A DNA stretch of 64,000 nt, taken from contig NZ_CP017641.1 in assembly GCF_001983935.1 (NCBI RefSeq), forward strand, positions 1,674,001-1,738,000. The letters run 5' to 3'. This document shows, piece after piece, positions 1-33,956 of the stretch. The notes beneath the pieces were generated by a model. That model saw only the letters and a list, made by a program, of their open reading frames with translations. It did no database searches and had not been told where the DNA came from. How positions within the stretch are numbered: the stretch's first letter is position 1; each line of letters opens with the position of its first letter. A program made the translations under genes and the position numbers. Origin of the DNA: Fuerstiella marisgermanici. GTDB lineage: Bacteria; Planctomycetota; Planctomycetia; Planctomycetales; Planctomycetaceae.

Positions 1-775
1 ACACGTCCGGGTAATTTTGCCATCGCAAAAAGAACTTCAGTTGGCGGACGTTCACGCCAGAAAAATACACGGTGTTGGAAGTACGTTTGTTGGCCAGACA
101 GACGGTTTGGCATTCCATCAGTTCACGACGCAGCAGCGTCTCGACCAATGTGTTTGGTTCATTCAAAAAGGCGCTGCACTGGACCTTGTCCACAATTTGT
201 TCGCGGTCCTGAGCGTCAAAAAAGAAGTAGAAGTTCTCCAGTTCTGTCGCATCCGGGTCGTTTTTAAAGCCGTAGCTAATGCCGCTGGAAACTGTGCTGC
301 CAGGATTGCCGACATAAACGTGAACGGTGTCGACGTTTCCATTCGCCGCGGCGACTGCTGCATTCAAGTCGAAGGAAAACATGAAGTAAGGAATGTTCTC
401 CCCCACGGTGTCTGGAAATTGCAGCTGTCCCTGGCAAGCCGATTCCAGACGTTTGACGGATACGATGCGATCCTGCCGCTCATAGTCGTACAAATACATT
501 TCCAGCGACCACTGGCCATCGATCTGCTTCACACCATAGACGCTTCGAAAATCCCCCAGCCCTGCCCGAATTGTTTCGATCGTTTCGGCCAGCCACTCTG
601 CCTCCGGCATCTGTTGAATCGCCAGCCACAGCAAACTCGACGCCCGCAGTTTGCCCTCGCCTGTCGCTGGCGGTTCGTAAGGCCACCAACAATAGTTGCG
701 GTACGGATCACCGGGACGAATGCGTTCTGATAAGATTCGATCGTCCAAAAACGAACCGGATTCAGGAACTGACAT
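1..775 (-). CDS. Hypothetical protein, C-terminus beyond window edge
   Basis: An open frame on the minus strand starts at an ATG (775-773) and stays open to base 1, so about 258 residues are visible and the C-terminus lies outside the window. It begins MSVPESGSFLDDR and is soluble in appearance, with no signal peptide or membrane segment. Recognisable stretches are VHVYVGNPG near residue 150, an aromatic run ENFYFFFDAQD, and NTVYFSGVNVRQLKFFLRW near the visible end. I do not recognise the family. Its start lies only 30 bases from the start of the divergent gene at 806. The visible C-terminal stretch weakly resembles the C-terminus of that neighbour (V-x-QL followed by hydrophobics), so the two may share a fold. 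A role in the adjacent halogenase locus is inference from position only. Confidence 0.75.
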   Translation of the reverse strand, partial: MSVPESGSFLDDRILSERIRPGDPYRNYCWWPYEPPATGEGKLRASSLLWLAIQQMPEAEWLAETIETIRAGLGDFRSVYGVKQIDGQWSLEMYLYDYERQDRIVSVKRLESACQGQLQFPDTVGENIPYFMFSFDLNAAVAAANGNVDTVHVYVGNPGSTVSSGISYGFKNDPDATELENFYFFFDAQDREQIVDKVQCSAFLNEPNTLVETLLRRELMECQTVCLANKRTSNTVYFSGVNVRQLKFFLRWQNYPDV

Positions 776-805: not shown

Positions 806-1630
806 ATGACGTTGCGAGAATGCTTCGCGGAATTCGGCATGGAAAATCTGTTGCGATGGATTGCCGAATCCCGACCGCCGCTGAATTTCGAACGGTCGCT
901 GCGACTGCAACCCGACACTGTTGAAGTTCGTCGGTGTTTGTTCTCGTTTCCAACGGCCGCTCTGGGAAATTCGGCGGTCGACGAAGTCTTGCAGATTTGT
1001 CGCTTGATGAGCAGCCCGGAACAGCAGCTGACTGCTATTCAACGCTTCTTTCGTGGCGCCGAACACGTGCACTTCGGGTTTGAATGCACGGGCGATACTG
1101 CCATCGGAAAGTGCTATCTTGAACTGGCGGATTCCGGGCCCGCCGCCAGCGAGACAGCTCGGCTGAAGTTTCTGGGCTACAAATGGTCAATCAATGATCC
1201 TTCCGTTGCCGTCGTTAGTCGCTATCGCACGCTGCCTGTGAAGACCTGGGCCAATGTGGCAGAAACGATGCAACAACAGGTGTCGGCTGACTTACGCCCA
1301 GCCATGTCGCAACTGCTGGGCGAGTTCCAACCCGCGACGGACGGCGTGGAAGCAGCAGAACTCAACTTGCTGGAAGTGGAAGAAGAAGGCAGCAACCGCC
1401 GTTCGTACGATCTTAATGTCTATGCCGTCGAGCACACAGTCGCTGATGTCGTACAGTCCATCCGCACTGTAGCGGCAGCTCTTCATTGTAATATGCAGCA
1501 ACTGGATCAATGGGCCGCTGACAACCGGGAAGCCACGGTCGGCCACGTCGCGGTCGGGCAGAATCGCGTCGGCCTTCCTTTTCTAACAATCTACCACAGT
1601 GCAGACATCAAACAGTTGATTCTAAAGTAG
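806..1630 (+). CDS. Hypothetical protein next to the halogenase locus
   Basis: A 274-residue protein with no signal peptide or transmembrane segment. The ATG at 806 follows a GGTGA-like ribosome site. I do not recognise the family. Visible landmarks are HVHFGFECTGDTAIGKCYLEL near residue 90 and, at the C-terminus, VGHVAVGQNRVGLPFLTIYH followed by SADIKQL. The latter resembles the pattern in the divergent gene at 1-775. It is divergent from that gene (30 bases between starts) and convergent with the O-methyltransferase, whose stop is 21 bases away. Its position at the end of a methylation/halogenation operon makes a substrate-binding or accessory biosynthetic role possible, but no catalytic motif supports this. 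No clear terminator separates it from the convergent operon. Confidence 0.7.
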   Translation: MTLRECFAEFGMENLLRWIAESRPPLNFERSLRLQPDTVEVRRCLFSFPTAALGNSAVDEVLQICRLMSSPEQQLTAIQRFFRGAEHVHFGFECTGDTAIGKCYLELADSGPAASETARLKFLGYKWSINDPSVAVVSRYRTLPVKTWANVAETMQQQVSADLRPAMSQLLGEFQPATDGVEAAELNLLEVEEEGSNRRSYDLNVYAVEHTVADVVQSIRTVAAALHCNMQQLDQWAADNREATVGHVAVGQNRVGLPFLTIYHSADIKQLILK

Positions 1631-1651: not shown

Positions 1652-2671
1652 CTACGACTTCTTCGCAGTGATCAGCAGGAATGGCACTTCCAACGGAATT
1701 GTTTGAACGTTCACATCAGTGAAACCAATCTGCTGTAGCCACGTTTGGTAGCTGTCCGGTTCGCGGTACGACCGAAAAAACAGCATGACGGGAAGCAATC
1801 CGTACGGCGTTTCTTCGACGCTGAAGTCCCAGCGTTGACGTTCGAAGATCAGAATCGTTCCACCGGGCGGCAGCGCGTTGTAGCTTTTCTGAAGTAGTCC
1901 CGGCACACGGTCATCGGGCCAGTCGTGCAGGACTGACTTCCATGTGATCAAGTCGCATTCAGTGGGAAACGCTTCCTGCTGCATATCGGCGGGACAAAAC
2001 TGAATGCGATCGCGTTCCGGTTGCGTCTGAATGTGCCGCTGCCCGACCTGACAAACGACAGGCAGGTCGACAACCACAGCCTGCAGTTGTGATTCCCGCC
2101 GACAGATCTGCAATACGAACTCACCACTGTTTCCGCCAACATCCAGCATCCGCTGATGCTGACCAAAATCATAGTGGCTGTGACAGACGGGCGCTTCGTA
2201 CCGTGTCAGCATGGTGGTCAATTGCATCCAACGCGATGCCTGCATGCAGTTTGCCGTTGTCACGTCCTGGCAACGGCTGTAATCAAACAGTTCGAACAGC
2301 TTTGACGACGCCATAAAGTCGCCTTCAGATCGCAGCAGGTTTGGCAGGCTGTTGAAGTAGTCTGGCGCAACCAGTGTCGAGAACGTCAGCTTGGTCGTCA
2401 GAAGGTCGCGGAACTTTAGTGCCGTTCGAAAGACGTCCGTGAACCCAACGCGTTCAGCTTTTTTCGTGATCACATTGCTTCGAATCAACATCTGCAGCAG
2501 GAAGTGGCCACCGCGGACATCGCAGTCTCGCCCTCGCAGCAGATCATCAATCACGACACAATCTTCAGCTGCCAAAGCGTCGATGATCGACAGGTCAAAC
2601 GCAGCCTGTAGAGCTCGCGCCTGCAGCGAATCTGCCAGGAACTGTTCAATGATCAGGTAGTCAGTAGACAT
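1652..2671 (-). CDS. SAM-dependent O-methyltransferase (Methyltransf_2 / COMT-like)
   Basis: A 339-residue class I SAM methyltransferase of the plant-COMT/bacterial small-molecule O-methyltransferase type. An N-terminal helical dimerisation region (FLADSLQARALQAAFDLSIIDAL) is followed by the SAM motif MLDVGGNSGEF near residue 185. Next come an acidic VVVDLPVV strand and WKSVLHDWPDD near residue 255; the His of LHDW is the usual catalytic base in this family. The start is taken at the ATG at 2671 (MSTDYLIIEQ) rather than the longer 2719 frame, because it lies 8 bases after the stop of the upstream halogenase-like gene and matches the family N-terminus. It is the last gene of the minus-strand operon. 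The natural substrate is unknown; a hydroxylated aromatic or acid made by the neighbouring enzymes is an inference. Confidence 0.88.
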   Translation of the reverse strand: MSTDYLIIEQFLADSLQARALQAAFDLSIIDALAAEDCVVIDDLLRGRDCDVRGGHFLLQMLIRSNVITKKAERVGFTDVFRTALKFRDLLTTKLTFSTLVAPDYFNSLPNLLRSEGDFMASSKLFELFDYSRCQDVTTANCMQASRWMQLTTMLTRYEAPVCHSHYDFGQHQRMLDVGGNSGEFVLQICRRESQLQAVVVDLPVVCQVGQRHIQTQPERDRIQFCPADMQQEAFPTECDLITWKSVLHDWPDDRVPGLLQKSYNALPPGGTILIFERQRWDFSVEETPYGLLPVMLFFRSYREPDSYQTWLQQIGFTDVNVQTIPLEVPFLLITAKKS

Positions 2672-2679
2672 GGGCAAGT

Positions 2680-4245
2680 CTAACCGGCACTCTGTTGAAA
2701 CGGTCCGGCGTGAATCCAATCCAGTAGTTCTTCGTGCAAAGGAAGGTCCTTAACCGCCGCCTCGTTGTGCTTAACGGTTTCTCGCAGTACATGCTGAATG
2801 CGGTTGGGATCGATCGATCGAATGGCCAGCGACGGTCGATCCGGCAGACGACCGCAGCCCGCCAGAAACGAACGAATTTCTTCGCTTGGCATCGATTCAG
2901 GATTTGTCGCACGTACTGCTCCGCAGGCATCGTAGACAGCCAGCATCTGCTCCAATGCCGCTGACTGAGTTCCCATACCATTTTCTGAGTTTGCAGATGA
3001 CGATCGCCGGAGAGCGTGGTGCAGTTCAGCCACGTCGCGGAGTTCATCGGCGATAGATGACATCCGCGCGTTGTATTCCGCTCGCGTTGCCCTGCCGATC
3101 TTACGATCGGGGAACAACTCCATCAGCAATTCGATGCCGACTTGGTGTAGATGCAGATCCATCGCGGCAACGGGATTAAGCTGACACGCGGCGTTTCCTA
3201 AAGCAACCACGTTGTCTTTCCAAAACACGCTTCGCCGACCGTGGCGAATCGATTGGACCTGGACCTTCGCTTCAACACCTTCGCTGCCCGCCATGCCGGC
3301 ATTGCTGATTGACTGCAATCGCTTAGGCGCGTCGTTGTCTGATTCCTTTTGGCTGCAGAAGGCATATGTATGTTCGAGTTCGGCGGCCAATGGAATGGTG
3401 CGTGACCATCCGTTGTTGTGACCGACTACTCGAGTAAACACGGGGACCTGTCGTTTTCCCGGCGTGCGGATACTCGCCACACGATCGCACGAAAACTGGT
3501 CGTTCCACGAAATCCAGTTCGCGCCCGATGCGTCGCCATCGTTTGCTGTGCGGCAGTCCAGAAACAGGTCGCCGGGCACCGCTTTGCCATCGCCGCAGAC
3601 CACCTGAGCGATTCCGCCGCGGCCGTTCGGAGCAACTTTTTCTACAGCGGCTTGCACTTCTTCCACGCCGGACGTGACAGCTATGCTGCGAAACCATCGC
3701 GCAAGCCCGGCGGCATCCACATGAAAGCCATAGTGTCCAGATTTTGCGAATGCGGAAGTCGCGGAAAACGAATGAGGACTTTTGCCGGCCAGTGAGGCTG
3801 TCCACTGAGCAGCATACGAATGCAATGGCCGAAGCAGCCTGCCCGCTTTGCGTTCTGAAAACCACGCGTCGAACAACGGGTAGGCATCGACACGTTGAGC
3901 GTGCATACCGAGCGGCTGCCAGAAGTCTCGCCCTTCGCTGGCCCAGTCCGAAAACTGAGTTGCCAATCGGTACGTGCCGTTGCATGCTCGCAACATGTCA
4001 TGTTCGTCGATCCCGATATCCTTCAACAGATCGACAAGAGCAGTCGTCGTTGCATACGTCGAAAAGCCGGTTGTGAAAGCGGGGCCATCCGGACACACCG
4101 TCACGCGAATCCCCAGCCGACCGAAGTGCCGAAGCAGCATCGTCGCCGCCATCCATACAGTCACGTCGTTGCCCAAAATGACCACTCGCCGAGGAAATCG
4201 AACGGTGGGCGAAGACGGCTGGTCGGGTTTAGTGGAATCATTCAT
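2680..4245 (-). CDS. Degenerate tryptophan-halogenase-like protein (probable pseudoenzyme)
   Basis: A 521-residue protein whose length and layout match the flavin-dependent tryptophan halogenase family and its paralogue at 9421-10974. Shared features include SLAGKSPH near 151, the GDLFLDC strand near 225, and the LPLHEELL tail. The hallmark residues have gone. The FAD-binding glycine loop is LGNDVTVW (24-31) where the paralogue has GGGTAGW. The GEATIP segment is GFSTYAT. The lysine of ATWKLG is arginine (TYRLA, R93). The W-x-W-x-I-P halogenase signature is W280-S-R-T-I-P. The EPLESSG segment is NPVAAMD (357-363). It therefore probably binds no FAD and is catalytically dead, perhaps serving as a partner, scaffold or substrate-binding subunit. 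It overlaps the P-loop gene by 4 bases (4242-4245). Confidence 0.85.
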   Translation of the reverse strand: MNDSTKPDQPSSPTVRFPRRVVILGNDVTVWMAATMLLRHFGRLGIRVTVCPDGPAFTTGFSTYATTTALVDLLKDIGIDEHDMLRACNGTYRLATQFSDWASEGRDFWQPLGMHAQRVDAYPLFDAWFSERKAGRLLRPLHSYAAQWTASLAGKSPHSFSATSAFAKSGHYGFHVDAAGLARWFRSIAVTSGVEEVQAAVEKVAPNGRGGIAQVVCGDGKAVPGDLFLDCRTANDGDASGANWISWNDQFSCDRVASIRTPGKRQVPVFTRVVGHNNGWSRTIPLAAELEHTYAFCSQKESDNDAPKRLQSISNAGMAGSEGVEAKVQVQSIRHGRRSVFWKDNVVALGNAACQLNPVAAMDLHLHQVGIELLMELFPDRKIGRATRAEYNARMSSIADELRDVAELHHALRRSSSANSENGMGTQSAALEQMLAVYDACGAVRATNPESMPSEEIRSFLAGCGRLPDRPSLAIRSIDPNRIQHVLRETVKHNEAAVKDLPLHEELLDWIHAGPFQQSAG

Positions 4246-4856
4246 TGTACTATTTCCTGAGCCATCGTTGAGCTATTTGGTGAAGGGAGCAGTGGCGCAA
4301 GAAGGGCCTGCAAGCGTTCGCACACTTTCTGTGGAGTCCCGTTTCCGTTCAGTCGTTCATCGGACTGTTGACCAACCTGAGTTCGTTGGCGAGCGAAAAG
4401 CTGCCGCGTCGTCTGCACATAGCTGTCACAGAACTCAGCCAGCCACGCCAGCGAATCAGCGGCAGAGGCGGATTCGGGATTGCTTAGCATCTGCCGCGTC
4501 AATTGGGCGACCTTGCGAGCGAACGCGATGTCGGCATCGACGTCGATCCAGACCTGCAGATCGATGTGTGGCCGCAGAGCCGCATGCAGGCGTCCGAACT
4601 GAGTTTCCAGAAACACCACACGATCCGACGCAGCCGTTGCGGCTTCCAGAGCCGAAACCAGTGCAGACAAATCGAATTCGTCCACCTGTCCACCTCGGTC
4701 CCACCACGCTTTCACTTCACCAATTGATTTCAGAGGCGCCGGATTGTAGGCGTCTTCCTCCAGCACGATGCAGTCGCCTAGCTGCGACGACAACAGGTCC
4801 AGCAGCGTCGACTTACCGCTGCCCATCATTCCGCAGATTGCCACAACGTGACTCAT
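4242..4856 (-). CDS. P-loop NTP-binding protein, kinase-like
   Basis: A 204-residue protein with a Walker A motif right at the N-terminus (GMMGSGKST, residues 9-17) and a hydrophobic VVFLE strand that ends in an acidic residue near 95. The IDVDADIAFARKV stretch is typical of small nucleoside/uridine-kinase-like P-loop proteins. The reading frame is open upstream to 5144, but the ATG at 4856 (MSHVVAICG) gives a normal P-loop N-terminus and a 4-base ATGA overlap with the methyltransferase upstream. It also overlaps the halogenase-like gene downstream by 4 bases, so it is embedded in the operon. The phosphoryl acceptor is unknown. It could phosphorylate a pathway intermediate, confer self-protection, or act as an ATP-dependent chaperone. 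Confidence 0.85.
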   Translation of the reverse strand: MSHVVAICGMMGSGKSTLLDLLSSQLGDCIVLEEDAYNPAPLKSIGEVKAWWDRGGQVDEFDLSALVSALEAATAASDRVVFLETQFGRLHAALRPHIDLQVWIDVDADIAFARKVAQLTRQMLSNPESASAADSLAWLAEFCDSYVQTTRQLFARQRTQVGQQSDERLNGNGTPQKVCERLQALLAPLLPSPNSSTMAQEIVQ

Positions 4857-5713
4857 AGTGACACTCCTGCAACAGCGGAAATGTAATCGTATCGCAGCAA
4901 GTGGTTGGCATGCAGCCAGTGCAACAACATTGCCGAACGAGCGGCCACATCCTGCGGTGCTCGGTGATTGTGTTCGTGCCGTGGCGCGATAAATTTGTAG
5001 CTGGGAAGCGTGTTCTGAGTGGCATCGACCTGACGAATGTCTTCCCAGGTTCCCGACGATTCGATCAGTGTCGCGGCGTCCCCCAATTCGCACCAGGGAT
5101 CTGGCCACGGACCGTAGCCATCGTTCAAAATGGCGTCGAAGCAAAACGATGGCATCCGATCGTCTTGCAGAAGGACGACGTCCGTCAGCACCAGCCGTCC
5201 GCCTGGTTTTAACACGCGCCTTGCTTCCGCCAGAAACCGCTCACGAGAGGCAAAGTGAAACATGGCTTCGATGCAGAAAAGCGTGTCGAATGTTTCGTCT
5301 GCAAACGGCAGGTCACAAGCGTCGGCTTCCTGCCAGCGCAACGCGTTTCCATTGATCGATTGCAGACGCTGGCAGATTTCCAGTTGCCGGATGTCGATAT
5401 TGACGCCCGCCAAATCGACGTCGGTGAGTCGGTCGTCCAGAGTTTCGATCAGCCCACCAAATCCGCACGCGACGTCCAGAATGCGTGTTCCGGCAGTTAA
5501 GTGGGCCATGCGAATCATCTCAGCATTCATCCGCGCTTGAGCCATTTCGAAGGCGTCAGAATCAACTGCTTGCGGACCGATCGCCAGGCTCTCGTCAGGT
5601 TCGTCCCAGTGTCCAAGATGGGCATGACGCCCTATTCTGCCAGCGTAGTACGCATCGATCATGCGATCGAAGTACACGGGCGGTCGAGCTATGCTGGTGG
5701 TTTCAAGGTTCAT
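4853..5713 (-). CDS. Class I SAM-dependent methyltransferase
   Basis: A 286-residue methyltransferase of the Methyltransf_11 type. Motif I reads ILDVACGFGG (near residue 79), followed by NIDIRQLEICQ, the acidic EADACDLPFAD region, FDTLFCIEAMFHF and the post-motif ARRVLKPGGRLVLTD. The AYYAGRIGRHAHLGHWD start resembles natural-product methyltransferases of the RebM/sarcosine-methyltransferase kind. The C-terminal 60 residues (PRHEHNHRAP onward) are rich in His and Arg and less typical. It begins 4 bases after the oxygenase stop and shares an ATGA overlap with the P-loop gene, so it is co-translated with both. It acts in the cytoplasm. Whether the acceptor is O, N or C cannot be told from sequence. 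Confidence 0.88.
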   Translation of the reverse strand: MNLETTSIARPPVYFDRMIDAYYAGRIGRHAHLGHWDEPDESLAIGPQAVDSDAFEMAQARMNAEMIRMAHLTAGTRILDVACGFGGLIETLDDRLTDVDLAGVNIDIRQLEICQRLQSINGNALRWQEADACDLPFADETFDTLFCIEAMFHFASRERFLAEARRVLKPGGRLVLTDVVLLQDDRMPSFCFDAILNDGYGPWPDPWCELGDAATLIESSGTWEDIRQVDATQNTLPSYKFIAPRHEHNHRAPQDVAARSAMLLHWLHANHLLRYDYISAVAGVSL

Positions 5714-5717
5714 CGAT

Positions 5718-6596
5718 TCAGCCCCAGCAATAGACGGCGTTGCGGTCCAGTGAATGTGCCATAAAGCTGCAGGCGACCCAGCGGTTTTTCGTCCCTAAGA
5801 CTGGCGTGACGCGGTGCAGATATCGTCCGGAATCAACAACAACCAGGTCACCAGGCCGCAGTTGGATTTTCGCTGAAGACAACTGCGACAGATCGATTTT
5901 GCCCGCATTTGCACCGGTGTTGCTGCTTTGATCTTCGTGAACATCGGACGGTTCGATGCGATGATCGAACACTTCTAGGTCACCGCCTTCGTCGGCCGCT
6001 CCGATCATCAGCACCATCGAATACATATGGCTGGATACAAGCGTGCTAAGATGTTCATACGCTGGCCGCACCGATTGTTCGTTATCGCAATGCGCGGGGA
6101 TGTAACCGCCTTCCGCGTGGCCTCGAAATGTGGTCAGCATATAGTCCTGCCCCGATTCCGGTCCCGGCGCAGAACGGTACGGACGGCCTTCGTCAAGACT
6201 CGACAGCACCCGCATCAGATGCTCGTTGATACCCAGGCCCGCCGGAAACAGCTCGGCCATCTGAGCATGAAACTCTCGTGCCTGCTTAAAGTAAGTTTCC
6301 GGGTCGGTTCCCATCAAACTCAGGTTGCGGCCATAAAACCACGACCGGAATTTCTCCGGAAACGACGTCTTCAGAAATGCAGGATCATGACGTTCCAGCC
6401 GATCCGCAATATTCGACATCACGTCGGCGCTATAGACACCGCGGACGACGATTGCCGTCAGTTGGCCCTTGCGAATGCGGCCAATGCTGTCCGCGTGATC
6501 GGCCGTTTGGTCGCAGTCGAATTCCACCAGACGAAAGAAAGGCTGCGGGGTTCCAATCAGCGACGTGTGCTCGTTAACTGATGTGACAAGATTCAT
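5718..6596 (-). CDS. 2-oxoglutarate/Fe(II)-dependent oxygenase
   Basis: A 292-residue double-stranded beta-helix oxygenase. The metal triad is visible: H169 and D171 in IPAHCDNE and H261 in GRYLHRVTP. R272 (TKNRW) is placed to bind the 2-oxoglutarate carboxylate. The RPGDLVVVDSGRYLHRVTPV block is typical of prolyl-hydroxylase-like 2OG enzymes. The start at 6596 overlaps the stop of the upstream radical SAM gene as ATGA; a longer frame from 6614 looks spurious. The family hydroxylates, desaturates or halogenates unactivated carbons. Because the HxD carboxylate is kept, hydroxylation or desaturation is more likely than 2OG-type halogenation. In this operon it may supply a hydroxyl for one of the methyltransferases (inference). 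Confidence 0.87.
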   Translation of the reverse strand: MNLVTSVNEHTSLIGTPQPFFRLVEFDCDQTADHADSIGRIRKGQLTAIVVRGVYSADVMSNIADRLERHDPAFLKTSFPEKFRSWFYGRNLSLMGTDPETYFKQAREFHAQMAELFPAGLGINEHLMRVLSSLDEGRPYRSAPGPESGQDYMLTTFRGHAEGGYIPAHCDNEQSVRPAYEHLSTLVSSHMYSMVLMIGAADEGGDLEVFDHRIEPSDVHEDQSSNTGANAGKIDLSQLSSAKIQLRPGDLVVVDSGRYLHRVTPVLGTKNRWVACSFMAHSLDRNAVYCWG

Positions 6597-7969
6597 GCTG
6601 CAGTAGACCTCCATGGCTGGATCGCAGGATTCTTAGGAGCTGAAAAGACCCAGAAATAGTCGCCAACCTGGCCGGTGTTCCCGTGAGCTTCCGCATTCAG
6701 AAATTCGCATTCCCGACGCACTTCGTCTTCGGACCAACCCAAACACGACCGAATCTTCAGGGACACCGGATCGTAATTCAACGCATGTTCTGGTGGGGAC
6801 CTCACCATCAGTGCAGATGGCAATACGCAGCAGTGGTAGACTCGCAAGGCACAGGGAAACGAGCGCGCGCGGTAGTAGCTTTCGCGGAATTGTTCGGGCG
6901 AATCGCCCGGAAGCCCCATGATAATTTCGATGGCGACTCGAGCGACCTCCGTCAGCTGTTGCACGTTGGAGATGAAGCGAGATTCTTCAAACGAACGTTC
7001 GACGTTCGCCAACACATCGTTATCAAAAGACTGCAGACCAATCCCGACCAGCGGATTCCCAATGCGTTCCAAAAAGCGAATGTGCGGATCCTGAATCTTT
7101 GCAGGATACACTTCCGAAATCAGCTTGCGGTTGCGAAAGAAGTCTGTTCGCTGAGCCGCCAGGTCCAGTTGTTCGAAGGCCTTCGAATTCAGATTCAGGC
7201 CCGCGTCGACCAGCAGTGCGCCGTCGACTCCCAGTGAGTCCATCGCATCAAATTCCAACGCAAGATGGTCGGCTGAGCGGACTCGTTTCGGGGATTCCAT
7301 CGTGCCCCATTCGCAAAACGAACACGTGTACGGGCATCCGCGATAGGTCTGCAGCACTCCCAGGCCACCCGGCGGAACCAGCTGCATCACGTATGGCGAA
7401 GGCAGTTCGTTTAGGTCTGCCAGAGGCCGCTTCTTTGTTTGGTGCCAGGCTTGACCATCCCACGCGGCGATCCCACGCACGGTCGCGATATCCTGAGGTT
7501 GACGATTCTGTAAAGTAACAAGCTCCAGAAACGTCAGTTCTCCTTCGCCAACAATCAGCGCATCGATTACGTTTCGCGTGGTGTGAAAAGGAGGTTGATC
7601 CAGCATCGAAGGCTGAGCTGACGGGCCGCCGAACAGAATGAACCGACTGGGGTCGTCGGCGTACAGTTGTTCGGCGACTTCGGCAAACAACGGGAACGAC
7701 CACAGGTAGCACGAAAATCCGACGACATCGGGATTCAGGTCAATCAGTGCTTCTGTCAGTTCGTCAGAAGCGGCGTCGTGTAAGTCGAAGACAACGACGT
7801 CAAGGCCGTCGAGTTCAGAAGCGCGCAAGGTGGCTTCGACCATGCGCACGCCGTGGTTCGAGATGAACTCCGGCATGGCAGGATCTGGCGTGGGGTACAT
7901 GGCGACCAGAGCCACTGTTCGGCCCGATCGCTTCTGCACCGCAGGTTGACGCGCGGCCGACTCAGGCAC
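6593..7969 (-). CDS. Cobalamin-binding radical SAM enzyme, copy 2
   Basis: A 458-residue protein with an N-terminal B12-binding Rossmann-like domain (residues 18-165, with VVGFSCYLWSFPLF and ILFGGPSA) followed by a radical SAM TIM barrel. The [4Fe-4S] motif is C212-PYT-C216-SF-C219, followed by EWG. DAGLNLN, GLQSFD and IEIIMGLPGDS match other radical SAM barrel strands. It starts with GTG at 7969 and overlaps its upstream paralogue by 8 bases (7962-7969). The two share the layout and short motifs (RGCPxxCxFCEWG, DAGLNLN, SC-x-GW), so they look like an old tandem duplication. Class B enzymes of this type methylate unactivated carbon or phosphorus, and some rearrange rings. The substrate here is unknown. 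Confidence 0.88.
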   Translation of the reverse strand: MPESAARQPAVQKRSGRTVALVAMYPTPDPAMPEFISNHGVRMVEATLRASELDGLDVVVFDLHDAASDELTEALIDLNPDVVGFSCYLWSFPLFAEVAEQLYADDPSRFILFGGPSAQPSMLDQPPFHTTRNVIDALIVGEGELTFLELVTLQNRQPQDIATVRGIAAWDGQAWHQTKKRPLADLNELPSPYVMQLVPPGGLGVLQTYRGCPYTCSFCEWGTMESPKRVRSADHLALEFDAMDSLGVDGALLVDAGLNLNSKAFEQLDLAAQRTDFFRNRKLISEVYPAKIQDPHIRFLERIGNPLVGIGLQSFDNDVLANVERSFEESRFISNVQQLTEVARVAIEIIMGLPGDSPEQFRESYYRARSFPCALRVYHCCVLPSALMVRSPPEHALNYDPVSLKIRSCLGWSEDEVRRECEFLNAEAHGNTGQVGDYFWVFSAPKNPAIQPWRSTAA

Positions 7970-9386
7970 TCTTTCGTCCTCCGGTAGTTGAAGCGGGCAC
8001 GAAGTGTTTCTGAGACAGATTGGGAATGGTGGCTCGCTGACTGGCTGGCGGGAACGACCACCAGAAGTCTCCGGCTGTGCCGCCGCAGAGTGTGGTTTCG
8101 CGAGTCAGCAGGTCGCGCATGTCGAGCAGTTGTTGCTGAGTCCAGCCCACGCAGGACTGCATCGACAGCGTGTGCGGATCGTACTTCATCTCCCATTCCG
8201 GCAACCCGCGCGTCATCAACGCATCGGGCAGCACAAGCGTATGGTAGACTCGCACCGTGACCGGCAGCGTTAGCGCATAGTTAAGCGTTTCGATAAAGCC
8301 GTCCCATGTATCGGTCGGCAGGCCGAAGATGATCTGGACTTCGATATTGGTGGCGACGGTATGTAGTTTTTCGATCGCCGGACCAAACTTCTCACGACCG
8401 TACGGCCGCTGTAACCGTTTTAGCAAAGCCGGATTGAACGATTGCAATCCGACGCCGAGGTACGATGGTCCACACTGAGATAAGAATTCAATGTGTTCAT
8501 CTTTGATCATCGAAGGATAAATTTCGCACCACAGCTGGCTGCCCTTCAGAAAGCCGACATTGCGTTCTGCGTTTGCCATATTTCGAAACGCCGCAGCGTT
8601 TAGGTTTAGTCCGGCATCAACGTTGAACACAGCCGGGCAATCATGAGCCTGTAAAGCAGCAAGTTCGCGAGTCAGATAGTCTTCGGAAAAGCAGCCCTTC
8701 GAAATATCTTTCGCGCCCCATTCGCAGAACGTGCAGGACATGGGACAGCCGCGGAACGATTCCAGATAGCCGACCGCCTGGTAGTTCATCAGGCCCATTT
8801 GATAGGGCGATGCGATCTCATCCAGTTCCTGCGGCGGCGGGCGGAACCCGGTATTGTGCCAACTAAGCGGTGTCGGAAGGTCCAGCCCCGGCACGTTGGA
8901 TAGCGTGTCGAACACATCTACGGTTGCCCGCTTTTGCTGCAGAGCAATGACGATGTCGCAGAAGGTTTCTTCGCCTTCCCGGGTGACCACGGCATCAACG
9001 TAGTCAACCGCCTTTTGATACGGCGTGAGATCCAGAACAGGTGGCCGAGCCGACGGGCCGCCGAACACGATTACGCACTGCGGCGACCGTTCTCGAATCT
9101 TTCGAGCAACCTGGACCAAACACTGCATGGACCACACGAATAAAGAAAAGCCGACGACCTGAGGATCGAATGCCAGCAGATCATCGACGTAGCTATCGAC
9201 GTCGACGGTTTCCAGGTCGAATAGTTGCACTTCGCAGTCGGCCAGCTTTGGATGAGCGACGACCGCTGCCAGAATCCGATGAATTCCATACGACGGAAGT
9301 TCAGTGCCATCGTGTTCATGGCTGTCGACTGATGGAGTCAGGCAGACCAGTGCGATTCGGCTGATGGCTCGGGGACCGGACGTCAT
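7962..9386 (-). CDS. Cobalamin-binding radical SAM enzyme, copy 1
   Basis: A 474-residue class B radical SAM enzyme. The N-terminal cobalamin-binding-like domain (about residues 10-160) contains VVGFSLFVWSMQCL and VIVFGGPSA. The radical SAM barrel carries C214-PMS-C218-TF-C221 followed by EWG, then VDAGLNLN, YLGVGLQSFN and VQIIFGLPTDT. The C-terminal third holds SCVGW and a GGTAGDFWWSF motif that may line the substrate pocket. The start is taken at the ATG at 9386 because GGAAAG sits five bases upstream; a GTG at 9392 is the alternative. The gene ends inside the start of its paralogue (8-base overlap). Cobalamin loading and a strong reductant would be required. Confidence 0.88.
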   Translation of the reverse strand: MTSGPRAISRIALVCLTPSVDSHEHDGTELPSYGIHRILAAVVAHPKLADCEVQLFDLETVDVDSYVDDLLAFDPQVVGFSLFVWSMQCLVQVARKIRERSPQCVIVFGGPSARPPVLDLTPYQKAVDYVDAVVTREGEETFCDIVIALQQKRATVDVFDTLSNVPGLDLPTPLSWHNTGFRPPPQELDEIASPYQMGLMNYQAVGYLESFRGCPMSCTFCEWGAKDISKGCFSEDYLTRELAALQAHDCPAVFNVDAGLNLNAAAFRNMANAERNVGFLKGSQLWCEIYPSMIKDEHIEFLSQCGPSYLGVGLQSFNPALLKRLQRPYGREKFGPAIEKLHTVATNIEVQIIFGLPTDTWDGFIETLNYALTLPVTVRVYHTLVLPDALMTRGLPEWEMKYDPHTLSMQSCVGWTQQQLLDMRDLLTRETTLCGGTAGDFWWSFPPASQRATIPNLSQKHFVPASTTGGRKSA

Positions 9387-9420
9387 AAACACTTTCCATT
9401 CTTACCAACCACAGATCGGG

Positions 9421-10974
9421 CTACGATGCCTTCGCGACAGAAGTCGCGTGTACCTGCTGCAACATTTCTTCGTGCAACGGCAGTTCCCGCAGTGCGTTCC
9501 GGTTCTGATCCAGAATGGCTCGCAGCACAAACTGCAGTCGATCCTTGTCCACAGCCAGCGACAACGCCGCGGGGCGTTTAGGAAGTCGGCCATTTCCAGC
9601 CAACAGGTAGTAGTAGCTGGCGTCCGGAAACGCACTCGCCTGCAATTGGTCCAACATGCCAATTTCATCGTAAAGGCGAAGACGGTGCTGAAGTGCGGAA
9701 CTCAACGGCGCTGCTTTCGCGGCTTTCCAAAACGGTTCGTCCCGGTCATTCAGCAAGTAGTGCAGTTGCACGAAGTCTACTATTTCATCGAACTGGATTG
9801 CCGTTTCGGAATTGTATGCCGTCCGCAGTGCAGCCTCGCTTGCCTGAGAACTCTTCGCCGTGGGAAAGTACTTCAGAAGTCGTTCGACGCCCGTCTGGAT
9901 CAGATGTAAACCGCTGGATTCCAATGGTTCCACAAAACCTGCTGCCAAGCCGTTCGCGACCACGTTTTCAGACCACGCGTTGACTCGACGACCAACCTTC
10001 ATCGACAAAAAGGCCGGCGTGTCGGTCTCGGCAGAGTCCGTGACGCCAACATGCTGTTGCAGTTCGGCGGCGGCTTCGTCGTCGGACACAAACTGGCTGC
10101 TGTAAACATACCCAACACCGCGACGATTCATGAGCGGTATGTCCCACGCCCAACCGGCGGACATCGCTTTGGCCGTGGTGTACGGGGCTTTGACTTTCGT
10201 CGCGGGAAGTCGCATCGTGACGGCTCGATCACACAGCAACTGTTCGCTGGCGTCCACCCATTCTTCCTGGGGACGGCGGCTCATCAACAGGCTGTTGAAT
10301 CCAGAACAATCGACAAACAGATCTCCGGCAACGCTGCTTCCGTCATCCAGTGTGACAGCAGAGATCTGACCGCTATCGTCGGTGACGATCTCCCTAACAC
10401 GGTGCCCCACCACTTCGACGCCGTTCGCTACCGAACGCAGTTTCAGCCATTGTGCCAGCTTCGCGGCATCCAAATGAAACGCATAGGCACCGGTCGCGGC
10501 GATCGGCGACAGGCTGTTGCGGGCATGAGGACTCTTGCCCGCCAGCGCGGCAGCCCAGTTTACGGAATACGAATGATAGGGACGTTGCTGATCGGCCAGC
10601 CAGTAAGAAAACAGATCTCGCTGGTCAATTTGTGCCCCGCACTGTCCAAAGGGATGCCACGCGGTTTGGCCGTCGGATTTCCAGTCGCAAAACTGAATCC
10701 CCAGTTTCCACGTGGCGTCGCAGCCTCGCAGGAATTCCGCTTCATCGCCGCCCAGCGTCCTTACGAGTTGCACAATGGACGGGATGGTCGCTTCGCCAAC
10801 GCCGATTCCGCCTTTGCCATCATCAATAATGGTCACGTGACATTCAGAACGAGATAACGAATGACTTAGCAACGCCGCAGTCATCCATCCGGCCGTGCCG
10901 CCACCAACGATGGCGATGCGCGACGCGGATAGATTTTCGCGGTTGTTTTGGTTTTGAAATGTTTGAGTGGCCAT
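9421..10974 (-). CDS. Flavin-dependent tryptophan-halogenase-type enzyme
   Basis: A 517-residue member of the flavin-dependent tryptophan halogenase family. Family features are intact: the FAD loop GGGTAG (24-29), GEATIPS (60-66), K90 in DATWKLG at the position where the family carries its active-site lysine, the signature W275-A-W-D-I-P280, and VEPLESSG (348-355). Members use FADH2, O2 and chloride or bromide to form HOCl, which is routed to a lysine before attacking an electron-rich ring. A flavin reductase is not present in the operon, so reduced flavin must come from elsewhere. It lies 18 bases after the small radical SAM gene and 34 before the first cobalamin enzyme. The family also includes enzymes acting on pyrroles, phenols and indole alkaloids, so tryptophan itself need not be the substrate. 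Confidence 0.92.
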   Translation of the reverse strand: MATQTFQNQNNRENLSASRIAIVGGGTAGWMTAALLSHSLSRSECHVTIIDDGKGGIGVGEATIPSIVQLVRTLGGDEAEFLRGCDATWKLGIQFCDWKSDGQTAWHPFGQCGAQIDQRDLFSYWLADQQRPYHSYSVNWAAALAGKSPHARNSLSPIAATGAYAFHLDAAKLAQWLKLRSVANGVEVVGHRVREIVTDDSGQISAVTLDDGSSVAGDLFVDCSGFNSLLMSRRPQEEWVDASEQLLCDRAVTMRLPATKVKAPYTTAKAMSAGWAWDIPLMNRRGVGYVYSSQFVSDDEAAAELQQHVGVTDSAETDTPAFLSMKVGRRVNAWSENVVANGLAAGFVEPLESSGLHLIQTGVERLLKYFPTAKSSQASEAALRTAYNSETAIQFDEIVDFVQLHYLLNDRDEPFWKAAKAAPLSSALQHRLRLYDEIGMLDQLQASAFPDASYYYLLAGNGRLPKRPAALSLAVDKDRLQFVLRAILDQNRNALRELPLHEEMLQQVHATSVAKAS

Positions 10975-10992
10975 CGTCGTTTCGAATCTGTT

Positions 10993-11901
10993 TCACGCAG
11001 ATCGCGGCATGGGAGAAAGGCGGTCTTCGTGCCAGCCAAAGTGATTCACATAGGCGGTGTTCAGCCCCAGACACTGCGTTGATCCGCAGATGTCGCGATA
11101 GGCACACTGTTCAAAACCGTTGCGGTTGAATTCGTCCCAGAACTTGGGATCGATTCGTAGTTCCGGCTGATCGTTCTTCAATGCGCTACTGGTTTCACCC
11201 ATCAAGCAATGCGGGAAGTTTTTGACTTCAACATGCCGGCCGTATTTTCGCGCCAGAAGGATGGCCTGCTTTAGGTAAGGACGGACATCAAAGTGAGAGA
11301 CCAACAGTTCAGGATTGCCTTCTTCTTCCATCGGCCAGTAGTTCCAGAAATCCATCTGCACCAGATTCCGCAGATCTTTCAGAAGTTCTACCACCTCAGG
11401 CAGCCCCTGATAGCTAAGCCGCGTCACCACGGTGTTCGTCATCAGGCGAACGCCGGGAAACGTGTCCAGATTTCGCAGCGCCTGCAGCGTTTTGTCGAAC
11501 GAGCCGGGTACTTCTGTAATGAGATCGTGCCGGGCAGCGGTGTCTGCTGTGACGCTGACAAAATATTCGTCGATTCCACTGGCGACAAGAGTTTCACAGT
11601 AGGCCATGTCTGCCAGTCGCATCGCATGAGTCTGGATGCGGACATGTTGAAAACCTGCGGCGCGAGCTCGTTCGGCAAGCTGTGGCAGGTCTTTTCGTAG
11701 AGTGACTTCGGCTCCGGTCAGAATCAGCCCCTGCCATTGTTTCGACTGACGGTTTTCTTCCAGCAGAGCGCTCAATTCGCTGTCGTCGGCCGGTTTTAGC
11801 CAGTGCATGCTGTCCAGAATCATGCAGTGCCTGCACTTCAGGTTGCAGCGAAAGTGCACCGTCATCTCGACATAGTCAGAATGTTGACACGGTGATTCCA
11901 T
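10993..11901 (-). CDS. Radical SAM enzyme with SPASM/twitch-like C-terminal cysteines
   Basis: A 302-residue radical SAM protein. The cluster motif C19-NLK-C23-RH-C26 sits at the N-terminus (VHFRCNLKCRHC). TGAEVTLRKDLPQL replaces the usual GGEP motif, and a normal half-barrel follows. Near the C-terminus, Cys residues in FPHCLMG, FEQCAYRDIC and GSTQCLGLN could bind an auxiliary Fe-S cluster, as in SPASM or twitch domains. Such enzymes usually modify ribosomal peptides or small metabolites. It is the first gene of the coupled biosynthetic run and is 39 bases downstream of the barrel protein on the same strand. No short precursor-peptide gene is visible beside it, so a peptide product is possible but unproven. 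Confidence 0.87.
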   Translation of the reverse strand: MESPCQHSDYVEMTVHFRCNLKCRHCMILDSMHWLKPADDSELSALLEENRQSKQWQGLILTGAEVTLRKDLPQLAERARAAGFQHVRIQTHAMRLADMAYCETLVASGIDEYFVSVTADTAARHDLITEVPGSFDKTLQALRNLDTFPGVRLMTNTVVTRLSYQGLPEVVELLKDLRNLVQMDFWNYWPMEEEGNPELLVSHFDVRPYLKQAILLARKYGRHVEVKNFPHCLMGETSSALKNDQPELRIDPKFWDEFNRNGFEQCAYRDICGSTQCLGLNTAYVNHFGWHEDRLSPMPRSA

Positions 11902-11940: not shown

Positions 11941-13068
11941 CTAGAACGAGACTTCGGCGGAAACCATCGGCCCGGTCAGACTCAAATTGGAACCGATGCC
12001 AAAGCTGTCGTCTGAGAAAGTTTCGTTCAGCCAGAACTGCGTTTCCCAGGCCGCTCGCACAGAAATACCGAAGCGATCAGACAATTCCGGCTGCCATGCA
12101 ACGCCGAGTTGGTTCTGATAAACCTGAGCCATCTCATCCTTAATTTCCGCTCGCGGCATATTGATCAGCAAAGCGCTGTTTTTGATGGAGCCCATTAGAA
12201 ACGAAGCTCGAACCGAGCCGAAGAATGAAAAACTGGTGTCACCGAGGGCGTGTTCTGCATTCAGCCCGAACACCGGACCGAGGCCTTCGAACGTCGCTGT
12301 TCCCTGTCCAATGACGGCAGTCGCGACGTCGGCCGCGTACTGCAGCTTCCCGTACTCAAGGCCGGCGGAAAAGTCGAAGTTCCAGCGGTTCGTGTCGTGA
12401 TGGAATACGAACTCCAGATCTGCGCTGTCCACAGTGATGCCGAGTTCTGCTGGCTGGAATGGTGGATCAAATCCGGTTGCATGATCGTATCGAAAATAGC
12501 GTCCACGGATTCCGAACGATTTTTCCGGACGCAGTTCTGCGATGTATCGAATGGCTGGATCATAGTTCGGATCGATCAGCCGCTGAGCTCCCGGTGATAC
12601 ATTGAACACCGGTGCCGCGCCACTGATGCGAGGTCTTAGAAACGGCACTTCGACTCCGACGGAGAACAATGGATAACAGTCACGATCGCAGCAACAACCT
12701 TCCCCGCATCCGCAGTCACCACCATAGGATTGTGTACTACAACCATTCGCGTCACAGCAGGCATTGGATGGCACAGAATACTGCGTCTGCAAAATTTGAG
12801 ACGGCGGTCCGGATACCATCGCTTCCAGCGATGCAGAATTGCTGGCGGTGGCGGTCGTGGGATACTGCGGTGGAAGGGCATCGTCTGCAGCACCACTGAA
12901 ACTAGTGGCAAGCTCGCCGTAATGCAGGGTGGTGGAATCTTCTGCCGATGTGTCGAACGCAATAACCGGCAGCTCCGCAGAATCGGGCCGATGTAGAGGT
13001 CTGTCCTGTGCCTGAGTAACCGTCGCTGACAGGACAATCGGTACCGCGAGCAGGGTTCGAATATTCAC
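11941..13068 (-). CDS. Lpg1974-like outer-membrane beta-barrel protein
   Basis: A secreted protein of 375 residues if it starts at the GTG at 13068. That start gives a clean signal peptide (NIRTLLAVPIVLSATVTQAQ) and has an AAAGG ribosome site. The frame is open to an ATG at 13155, but the extra 29 residues are basic and unlike a leader. After the signal comes a low-complexity linker, then a Cys-rich patch (CCDANGCSTQSYGGDCGCGEGCCCDRDC, given here in parts: CCDANGC, CGCGEGCCC). The remaining 230 residues have alternating hydrophobic strands and end in VSAEVSF, with the terminal Phe typical of outer-membrane barrels. It resembles the Lpg1974-type pore-forming proteins common in planctomycetes. 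It may share a transcript with the biosynthetic operon, as a porin or export partner, but that is inference. Confidence 0.75.
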   Translation of the reverse strand: MNIRTLLAVPIVLSATVTQAQDRPLHRPDSAELPVIAFDTSAEDSTTLHYGELATSFSGAADDALPPQYPTTATASNSASLEAMVSGPPSQILQTQYSVPSNACCDANGCSTQSYGGDCGCGEGCCCDRDCYPLFSVGVEVPFLRPRISGAAPVFNVSPGAQRLIDPNYDPAIRYIAELRPEKSFGIRGRYFRYDHATGFDPPFQPAELGITVDSADLEFVFHHDTNRWNFDFSAGLEYGKLQYAADVATAVIGQGTATFEGLGPVFGLNAEHALGDTSFSFFGSVRASFLMGSIKNSALLINMPRAEIKDEMAQVYQNQLGVAWQPELSDRFGISVRAAWETQFWLNETFSDDSFGIGSNLSLTGPMVSAEVSF

Positions 13069-13455
13069 AATTTGGCCTTTGCTGAGCCGACGGCTGTTCG
13101 CGTCCCGACGAGAGCGGCTGAAACGACGCCCGCCCCATTTAAAGGGATAACGCACGGAATACCGCAGGTATCGATTCTATCGGTTGTATCGCCAGCATCC
13201 TTTCACAGTTATTCATTCACGAAAACCCGCATACCGCGTCGGCAGCAGGCCGATCCTGCCGTTTTGTCGGTGCGCATTGTGGCCCACAGCGCAGCCGTGG
13301 AGGCCTGCTATGGGCCATGGGAATGGCTGGGACTAATGAGCATCAGTGGCTGCGTGGAAGGTGCGCCGATCGAGACGGGCCGAGTGCGCGGCGGTCAAGC
13401 CACCGGTCATCAAATGAGGACAGCGCCGAGTGCCTGTCGAGTGTCGCCTTCAAGT

Positions 13456-33411: not shown

Positions 33412-33956
33412 GTGTGTGCACCTGCACTCTACACGCTTTCGCATAAAAGTGATTACGGGTTGAATTCATGACCCACTGCGGCTACCGTAATTCTCGCTGC
33501 GCGGCCTGTGCAGTGCAGCAAACGCCGTCAATTCCTTCAGATTACGCACCACTTGACACCCATTGACGGTCTTAACGCTCGGGCCAATTCGCAAGGCAAC
33601 TTGTCATTGGCCGTTGACTAAGTGATGGTCGTGCATTCCCGCACTTGAGGGACGCTGCGGCCGATGAGGTCCGTCGTGGTAGAGATTCCCCCTTGCGGAT
33701 TGGCTGGTTGCCGTTTGCCAAAGACGAAGGTGCCGGACACATGTGAGCCTCCCGTAGCTCAGCATGCGCACCTCTCGTGGCGGGAATTCCCGACCAAACT
33801 CGATGGTGTTCACGTAGGCCGGTTCTGTCCACCCGCCAGTTCTGGCGCCCCGTGAGTGATGTTGTGAAGTTTTTGTGCGTCGTTGACCCGTGAGTGGCAT
33901 TCGTCACAACGACCGGCGGCGCATTGCTGAGTATCGTTTTTCTGAAGAGTGTGCCC
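33412..33956. other. Upstream region of the giant surface-protein gene
   Basis: About 545 bases without a gene. A GAAGAG ribosome site at 33944-33949 lies 7 bases before the GTG at 33957. A CCCGTGAGTG word occurs twice (about 33849 and 33887). No promoter could be assigned with confidence. Confidence 0.4.

Follow-up and report, generated by a model that had tools for sequence, protein, structure and literature searches.

The 64,000-nucleotide stretch of Fuerstiella marisgermanici analysed here (NZ_CP017641.1, positions 1,674,001 to 1,738,000 of the forward strand; hereafter the window) carries near its left end a minus-strand operon of nine open reading frames (ORFs), all at 1652-11901 in the ORF list. 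The system in question is a predicted tailoring cassette formed by this operon together with two genes on its left flank, orfX and orfY, and it adjoins a giant gene outside the window. The features are given below in window coordinates, with C1 marking contig coordinates; genomes, loci and contigs used for comparison are numbered with G, L and C, respectively.

orfY, 1..775 (minus strand, cut by the window; full gene C1:1673876-1674775): 299 amino acids (aa), divergent from orfX.
orfX, 806..1630 (plus strand): predicted ABBA (prenyltransferase-barrel, PT-barrel) prenyltransferase, 274 aa, convergent with OMT.
OMT, 1652..2671 (minus strand): O-methyltransferase with a dimerisation domain, Methyltransf_2 E 5.9e-23.
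FDH2, 2680..4245 (minus strand): degenerate halogenase homologue, 521 aa, PF04820 at 247 bits.
KIN, 4242..4856 (minus strand): P-loop kinase-like protein, 204 aa, PRK08233-like E 6.8e-19.
MT1, 4853..5713 (minus strand): class I methyltransferase, 286 aa, Methyltransf_11 E 5.2e-22.
WelO5-like gene, 5718..6596 (minus strand): Fe(II)/2-oxoglutarate enzyme, PF22814 E 7.7e-92.
B12b, 6593..7969 (minus strand): second cobalamin-binding radical S-adenosylmethionine (SAM) protein, 458 aa, PF02310 and PF04055.
B12a, 7962..9392 (minus strand): cobalamin-binding radical SAM protein, 476 aa, C-methyltransferase-like, PF02310 and PF04055.
FDH1, 9421..10974 (minus strand): flavin-dependent halogenase, 517 aa, PF04820 Trp_halogenase at 462.8 bits.
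rSAM1, 10993..11901 (minus strand): radical SAM protein, 302 aa, Radical_SAM E 5.8e-15.
Outer-membrane barrel-like gene (Legionella_OMP), 11941..13155 (minus strand): PF05150 E 1.3e-10.
Giant gene, C1:1637612-1673851 (outside the window, same strand as orfY): 12,079 codons, 36,240 bp, one open frame.

The coordinates place rSAM1 and FDH1 18 bp apart and FDH1 and B12a 28 bp apart; B12a and B12b overlap by 8 bp, B12b and the WelO5-like gene by 4 bp with the ATG at 6596 or by 22 bp with the first ATG (6614), the WelO5-like gene and MT1 are separated by 4 bp, MT1 and KIN (ATG 4856) as well as KIN and FDH2 overlap by 4 bp, and FDH2 and OMT lie 8 bp apart with ATG 2671 or overlap by 40 bp if a TTG start is used. 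These spacings bear out the original prediction of a tightly spaced nine-gene operon, and Pfam and NCBIfam calls agree with its two cobalamin radical SAM enzymes, further radical SAM enzyme, two methyltransferases and P-loop protein. Its statement that the operon encodes no precursor peptide is also upheld, the largest internal gap of 28 bp leaving no space for such a gene. The accompanying claim that a scaffold synthase is missing holds for the nine operon proteins, among which no polyketide synthase (PKS), nonribosomal peptide synthetase (NRPS) or terpene-synthase Pfam family was matched, and was misleading for the flank; the boundary drawn for the locus missed orfX, orfY and the 12,079-codon giant gene that adjoin its left side. 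Among the proteins of the locus that were scanned, neither isonitrile-synthase or cyclase families nor amino-acid-activating or other scaffold-making families were matched.

Related genes occur well beyond the planctomycetes. A scan of genome contigs with an orfY alignment, in which 593 stretches matched a pattern, identified at least 31 loci, the gene content of which was read by tblastn; by record title they belong to planctomycetes, cyanobacteria (including Nostoc sp. FACHB-152 and Trichormus), alpha-, beta-, gamma- and deltaproteobacteria and Methylomirabilota, and most are metagenome-assembled genomes (MAGs). Counts over these loci are among the matches listed, absences are no evidence where contigs break off near the cassette, as many do, and three of the loci (L079, L080 and L082) are genomes also counted below as G297, G300 and G124. 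orfY was found in 31/31 loci, orfX in 25, rSAM1 in 22 and OMT in 21, and from these counts the four genes are therefore regarded as the core, with the halogenase and the other genes as accessories: the WelO5-like gene occurs in 8 loci, MT1 in 7, KIN in 7, B12a in 6, B12b in 7 (the matches in L096 and L108, at 26%, being probably other cobalamin enzymes), FDH1 in 6, under planctomycete titles only, and FDH2 in 2. The gammaproteobacterial L089 has the WelO5-like gene, MT1, B12a and B12b beside the core; a compact cassette is found in Nostoc sp. FACHB-152, and a reduced one on a plasmid of Pontibrevibacter nitratireducens ALG8. The planctomycete operon is thus most likely an extension, by halogenation, hydroxylation and C-methylation, of a cross-phylum cassette.

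Other genes recur around the core. The C-terminal part of the giant protein, used as query, matched at 9 of the 31 loci and the N-terminal part at 2 more; DUF3467 genes were found at 9, SapC at 4 and isopentenyl diphosphate (IPP)-isomerase-like genes at 3, while HlyD-type genes adjoin 6 loci, M50-like/HlyD genes 5 and SecA genes 3. In L088, L092, L098, L099, L101, L109 and L140 the cassette stands beside genes for GAF-HlyD, M50-like metalloprotease-HlyD and DUF3467 proteins, with SecA homologues in three of them, and it is possible that these neighbours constitute an export system for giant proteins.

The core gene orfX matched no Pfam family at E 0.01 and, by sequence, no solved prenyltransferase in the PDB. 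An AlphaFold2 model built from five orthologues (predicted local distance difference test, pLDDT, 87.1; predicted template-modelling score, pTM, 0.85) displays the ten-strand antiparallel barrel of the PT-barrel fold, and a Foldseek search of the PDB returned 90 matches at E <= 1e-3; the best 50 of the 90 are all aromatic or peptide prenyltransferases, with E values from 3.7e-7 to 1.5e-4 and template-modelling (TM) scores (query) of 0.44-0.64, and include FunA, PriB, PagF, IptA, CymD, AmbP1 and AmbP3. In an alignment of 20 sequences, which left out two short fragments from L099, E29, R43, K102, Y104, K126, Y140, R198, D202, N204, Y206 and Y263 are invariant and R254 is present in 19; the invariant Glu, Lys, Arg and Tyr may be the counterparts of the conserved Glu and diphosphate-binding residues of known PT-barrel enzymes. 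Because sequence-level matches in the PDB are lacking, the assignment of orfX as a predicted ABBA/PT-barrel prenyltransferase is based on the predicted fold, the conserved residues and the context. In L096 and L101 a DUF3467 domain stands ahead of orfX within one ORF, with two orfX-like stretches in tandem; L108_7, considered as a further orfX homologue, was rejected for having no profile match.

The presence of the peptide prenyltransferases PagF, LimF and KgpF among the nearest folds of orfX, and the resemblance of rSAM1 to SPASM/twitch maturases, would also suit a pathway for a ribosomally synthesized and post-translationally modified peptide with its short precursor encoded elsewhere in the genome. 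This explanation is considered very improbable, given that the operon offers no precursor-sized gap and that the only small shared proteins noticed among ORFs of at least 90 aa are those with DUF3467, in 9 of the 31 loci listed.

The model of orfY is weaker (pLDDT 72.6) and contains five beta-beta units. Its four Foldseek matches below 1e-3 are AmbP3, FamD1 and, twice, AmbP1, at TM scores of 0.38-0.42 that come from this weak model, and orfY is probably a second PT-barrel protein. Independent support for prenyl chemistry comes from the isomerase-like genes: in L108 an IPP isomerase gene adjoins orfY and rSAM1, scoring 131 bits against the NF002995 cut-off of 127 and 104 against 105.8 for TIGR02150; in L101 an isomerase-like NUDIX domain is fused to OMT, and L100 encodes a 72% relative of it, likewise fused to OMT. 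An alternative in which the tailoring cassette is real and orfX and orfY use the PT-barrel fold for binding, regulation or another transfer draws on the low identity to the fold matches (8-15% for orfX, 7-12% for the prenyltransferase matches of orfY), on the absence of a profile match and on the fact that a fold alone is no proof of a reaction; the Lys, Arg, Tyr and Asn residues invariant over 20 sequences from several phyla, together with the isomerase-like genes at 3 of the 31 loci listed, make it improbable.

The radical SAM enzymes of the operon are less easily named. rSAM1 has a CxxxCxxC motif at residue 19 followed by cysteines at 232, 266, 272 and 277 in a SPASM/twitch-like arrangement, whereas B12a and B12b, paralogues of about 36% identity, each join a B12-binding domain to a CxxxCxxC radical SAM domain, the combination expected of cobalamin-dependent methylases. 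In this they resemble KedN5, TokK and CysS, to which their best matches lead: B12a, with CPMSCTFC at residue 216, matches the KedN5-family profile at E 2.1e-22, under its cut-off, and the nearest solved structures of B12b are TokK and CysS. They are shorter, at 458-476 aa, than the solved relatives (645-681 aa), and their scores of 79 and 103 bits fall below the curated KedN5 cut-off of 700 bits in NCBIfam. The NCBIfam matches of rSAM1, B12a and B12b all fall far under curated cut-offs, and a named subfamily is therefore not applicable to any of them. KIN likewise reaches 68 bits with the PRK08233-like profile, the cut-off of which is 198.

The original prediction recognised one intact and one degenerate halogenase, and the motifs of the two proteins confirm this. 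FDH1 carries GGGTAG, WAWDIP and FVEPLESSG, that is, all three of the diagnostic motifs GxGxxG, WxWxIP and FxxPxxSxG, the meanings of which are set out in the available part of PMC8407142; among aligned copies that cover the respective region, FxxPxxSxG is kept in 7/7, WxWxIP in 6/6 and GxGxxG in 5/5. Its nearest solved structures are 9luq, BrvH (6frl) and 6y1w, and indolic substrates are listed for BrvH in the same part of PMC8407142. In FDH2, GxGxxG is gone from all six copies, that of F. marisgermanici included, and so is the Glu position of LES; the complete FxxPxxSxG is found in 0/6 copies and WxWxIP in two (G124 and G299). The Glu of the halogenase LES motif is catalytic. The FDH2 frame is nevertheless open in 6/6 copies, and dN/dS against the G297 orthologue is 0.14, at a dS of 1.6 that is near saturation; neighbouring operon genes give 0.04-0.15, at dS values of 1.1-3.3 that are likewise near saturation. 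A chance pseudogene was rejected on the open frames and this ratio, and FDH2 is, as judged from its sequence, a conserved and maintained pseudoenzyme; that it acts as a partner of FDH1 is a guess. Three more ORFs of the tryptophan-halogenase family occur elsewhere in the same genome, above the family cut-off though with scores of 40-50 bits:

C1 745221-746300: halogenase-family ORF.
C1 4263821-4264942: halogenase-family ORF.
C1 8589135-8589884: halogenase-family ORF.

The 2-oxoglutarate oxygenase of the original prediction is indeed an Fe(II)/2-oxoglutarate enzyme, and can be placed more precisely in the WelO5 family (PF22814, scoring 308 bits where the cut-off is 27). Numbered from the ATG at 6614, its metal-site residues are H175-C-D177 and H267, with R278; the HCD aligns to HVG of the solved WelO5-type chains, and all six aligned sequences share the HxD, distal His and Arg. 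The homologues of L084, L085, L086, L089 and L107 have HxD as well, and the halogenase-type HxG is absent from the F. marisgermanici enzyme and from the homologues readable at that position, except in L108 (2/3 HxG). In WelO5-type halogenases HxG replaces the HxD metal ligand and leaves the halide site, and a Gly-to-Asp change in WelO5 favours hydroxylation. Because HxD and not HxG occupies the metal site, the enzyme is predicted to be a hydroxylase, and its reading as a halogenase was rejected. L108, a deltaproteobacterial MAG, holds three WelO5-family genes at 3843-8672, beside orfY, rSAM1, the IPP isomerase gene and a Rieske oxygenase gene.

Within the genus, eight genomes were compared. 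The B12a-B12b tandem is present in F. marisgermanici, G293, G297, G299 and G300, and the gene order in the last four is identical as far as their contigs extend; the gene set is thus conserved in relatives, which supports the original prediction, and since congeners share the order, the clustering exceeds chance. G249 has rSAM1, an FDH1 interrupted by an internal stop, and B12a truncated at the contig end, and in G172 and G298 no cassette gene was found where tested. The Legionella_OMP-type gene, which ends 39 bp upstream of rSAM1, is possibly the first gene of the operon; a homologue adjoins rSAM1 in G297 and G124, and a member of the family adjoins the giant gene in G293.

orfX was found in 5/10 genomes and orfY in 6/10, the sixth being a fragment in G243. 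In a class sample of 297 genomes, the WelO5-like gene and orfY occur in the same four (F. marisgermanici, G293, G124 and, as fragments, G243), rSAM1 in five, and matches to FDH2 in seven, with at least 45% only in F. marisgermanici, G293 and G124. G124, from another genus of the same family, has every gene, on eight contigs:

KIN-FDH2-OMT on C112; rSAM1-FDH1 on C72; WelO5-like gene on C52; B12a-B12b on C50.
MT1 on C27; orfX on C104; orfY on C39; C-terminal part of the giant on C7.

Scattering of the genes in relatives, which would have spoken against a joint system, is thus seen in one genome; all genes persist there together though dispersed, which is strong evidence for a functional link, albeit from an assembly that is fragmented. 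Directly before KIN-FDH2-OMT, G124 has a 648-aa SecA-like gene (L034:6479-8425). In G243 the WelO5-like gene, B12a and orfY survive only as interrupted remnants (L038, L053 and L078), which suggests that this genome has lost the pathway. In another family, G119 has a lone rSAM1 homologue spread over two frames (C39:28425-29143, L067), with no other cassette gene in 20 kb.

The giant gene follows orfY at 24 bp by the longest frame, or at about 340 bp with the start at which the G297 protein aligns; in G297 a giant gene follows orfY on the same strand at 328 bp. Pieces of the protein match RTX repeat profiles (PF00353 HemolysinCabind at E 2.3e-32 in a 901-residue piece), labels that describe repeats and not toxicity, and in a nine-sequence alignment residues of about 10,890-11,520 form a well-conserved domain. 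Residues of about 10,100-11,520 align to the giants that stand ahead of the cassette in six loci at 352-916 bits, against 91-174 bits for the control, an unrelated 5,820-aa giant of the window; identity to the F. marisgermanici giant is 46% in L095, 45% in L097, 43% in L096, 40% in L089, 39% in L087 and 35% in L101. The gene next to the giant is OMT in L087 (spacing -4 bp), rSAM1 in L103 (5 bp), an orfX-bearing ORF in L088 (18 bp) and SapC in L095 (20 bp). On the Pontibrevibacter plasmid a 3,926-codon gene lies 15 bp before orfY, which is followed by rSAM1, with DUF3467 and HlyD/M50-like genes upstream; this gene is a giant by size and position alone. NRPS or PKS genes upstream in relatives were considered and rejected, the long upstream ORFs that were scanned (fam6) being RTX-type. 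The control giant (33894-51356, plus strand, 5,820 codons) is itself weakly similar to the cassette-linked giants. A LEPR-8K search of the genome gave no match, the control being also without match; a tandem-repeat search of L110 at score 500 and a tRNA search gave nothing of use.

It is tentatively proposed that the prenylation-centred cassette tailors a giant RTX-type exoprotein, the giant itself being the favoured substrate. This reading is favoured because the cassette is closely linked to related giants in several phyla, its genes are jointly retained in G124, no scaffold-making or precursor gene was recognised, and export-type genes are among its neighbours. Barely behind it stands a free small-molecule pathway, also a reasonable if unproven candidate, in which orfX and orfY would prenylate an aromatic of primary metabolism (free tryptophan, an indole or another) and the remaining enzymes would decorate it to a prenylated, halogenated alkaloid-like product, the giant being an ecological partner or a co-inherited neighbour. 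The enzyme families are those of small-molecule tailoring; AmbP1, AmbP3 and FamD1, the nearest folds of orfY, share with WelO5 the indole-alkaloid chemistry of cyanobacteria; the nearest structures of FDH1 include BrvH, with its indolic substrates; L108 combines its three WelO5-family genes (two with HxG), IPP isomerase and Rieske oxygenase with no ORF of 1,000 codons in 18 kb; and among the matches listed, 10 of 21 loci of at least 10 kb lack such an ORF. Such a pathway is harder to reconcile with the lack of any match to amino-acid-activating or scaffold-making families among the locus proteins scanned, and with the beta- and deltaproteobacteria and cyanobacteria, in whose loci giant genes stand no more than 20 bp from the cassette gene or SapC that comes next.

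Several further observations weigh against the favoured reading. The 10 loci without a 1,000-codon ORF just mentioned, several of which end at a contig edge, are:

L080, L085, L090, L092, L098, L099, L104, L105, L108 and L109.

One of the 11 loci that do have a 1,000-codon ORF, L082, has only a kinase-like one. Three matches to the giant are weak, at 167 bits against 62 for the control in L088, 138 against 80 in L103, and, unspecifically, 97 against the control's 107 in L102. In G293 orfY and the giant are separated by a plus-strand gene of about 5 kb, and no match to the giant region turned up in G297, G299 and G300, where contigs end. Nor were orfX and orfY found in G299 and G249, which hold other cassette genes on contigs that end beside the set. 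The orfY model is mediocre (pLDDT 72.6, TM about 0.4), and orfX has no sequence-level match to solved prenyltransferases in the PDB. The relatives of the flavin-dependent halogenase, WelO5, OMT and the cobalamin radical SAM enzymes are best known for acting on small molecules. Planctomycetes, moreover, are rich in giant genes, strain NH11T having 45 genes above 5 kb according to the available part of PMC5177795, and adjacency to a giant in planctomycetes alone is therefore weak evidence.

If the giant exoprotein is the substrate, we infer the following reactions. Before or during export, the products of orfX, orfY or both would transfer a prenyl group, donated by dimethylallyl diphosphate or by a longer-chain diphosphate, to an aromatic group that is probably of indole type; rSAM1 would introduce a radical-based change, and OMT would methylate an oxygen. 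In planctomycetes, FDH1, perhaps with FDH2, would halogenate, the WelO5-like enzyme would hydroxylate an aliphatic carbon, B12a and B12b would C-methylate, and MT1 would methylate again. Each reaction and the substrate are deduced; gene content, conservation, co-occurrence and motifs are directly observed, and the orfX fold is a prediction. The broadest formulation, of a widespread undescribed maturation system in which PT-barrel enzymes, a radical SAM enzyme and OMT tailor giant RTX exoproteins of up to about 12,000 residues, and to which planctomycetes add a halogenase, a WelO5-type hydroxylase and two cobalamin methylases to give halogenated, prenylated, C-methylated surface-protein residues, is rather unlikely.

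Parallels exist in several described systems. The cyanobacterial hapalindole-type pathway pairs PT-barrel prenyltransferases with a WelO5-family enzyme, and the present locus resembles the hapalindole, ambiguine and welwitindolinone pathways in having predicted PT-barrel proteins, among whose fold matches are the indole prenyltransferases AmbP1, AmbP3 and FamD1, together with a relative of WelO5/AmbO5. It differs from them in the HxD, the flavin halogenase, the cobalamin radical SAM enzymes, rSAM1 and the tie to a giant protein, and no isonitrile-synthase or cyclase family was matched among its scanned proteins. FDH1 is like the flavin-dependent tryptophan halogenases of PF04820 (9luq, 6frl BrvH, 6y1w) in its full profile and motifs, and unlike them is paired with the conserved, catalytically degenerate FDH2. 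RTX proteins are lipid-modified by dedicated acyltransferases encoded in the same operon; the likeness lies in an exoprotein and modifying enzymes encoded together, and the difference in the enzymes, here PT-barrel, radical SAM and OMT proteins, and in the giant size of the candidate substrate. In limited searches of the open-access literature no description of the cassette was found, in keeping with the original prediction of an undescribed system. A planctomycete giant gene is linked, also in other phyla, to a defined set of enzymes for which prenyl, radical, methyl, hydroxyl and halogen chemistry is predicted, and this link makes the role of giant proteins testable: should the giant protein be the substrate, a new type of exoprotein modification would be at hand, and otherwise a new prenylated-aromatic pathway.

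The giant beside orfY, at 36,240 bp, compares with the biggest gene of NH11T, given as 36,239 bp on an 8.9-Mb chromosome in the available part of PMC5177795. That part mentions no enzyme cluster beside the giant, the word 'halogenase' occurs nowhere in the main text, and the role of the giant genes is left there between structural functions and unknown secondary metabolites; antiSMASH 3.0 is reported to have returned two bacteriocin regions, one terpene region and one ectoine region (PMC5177795).

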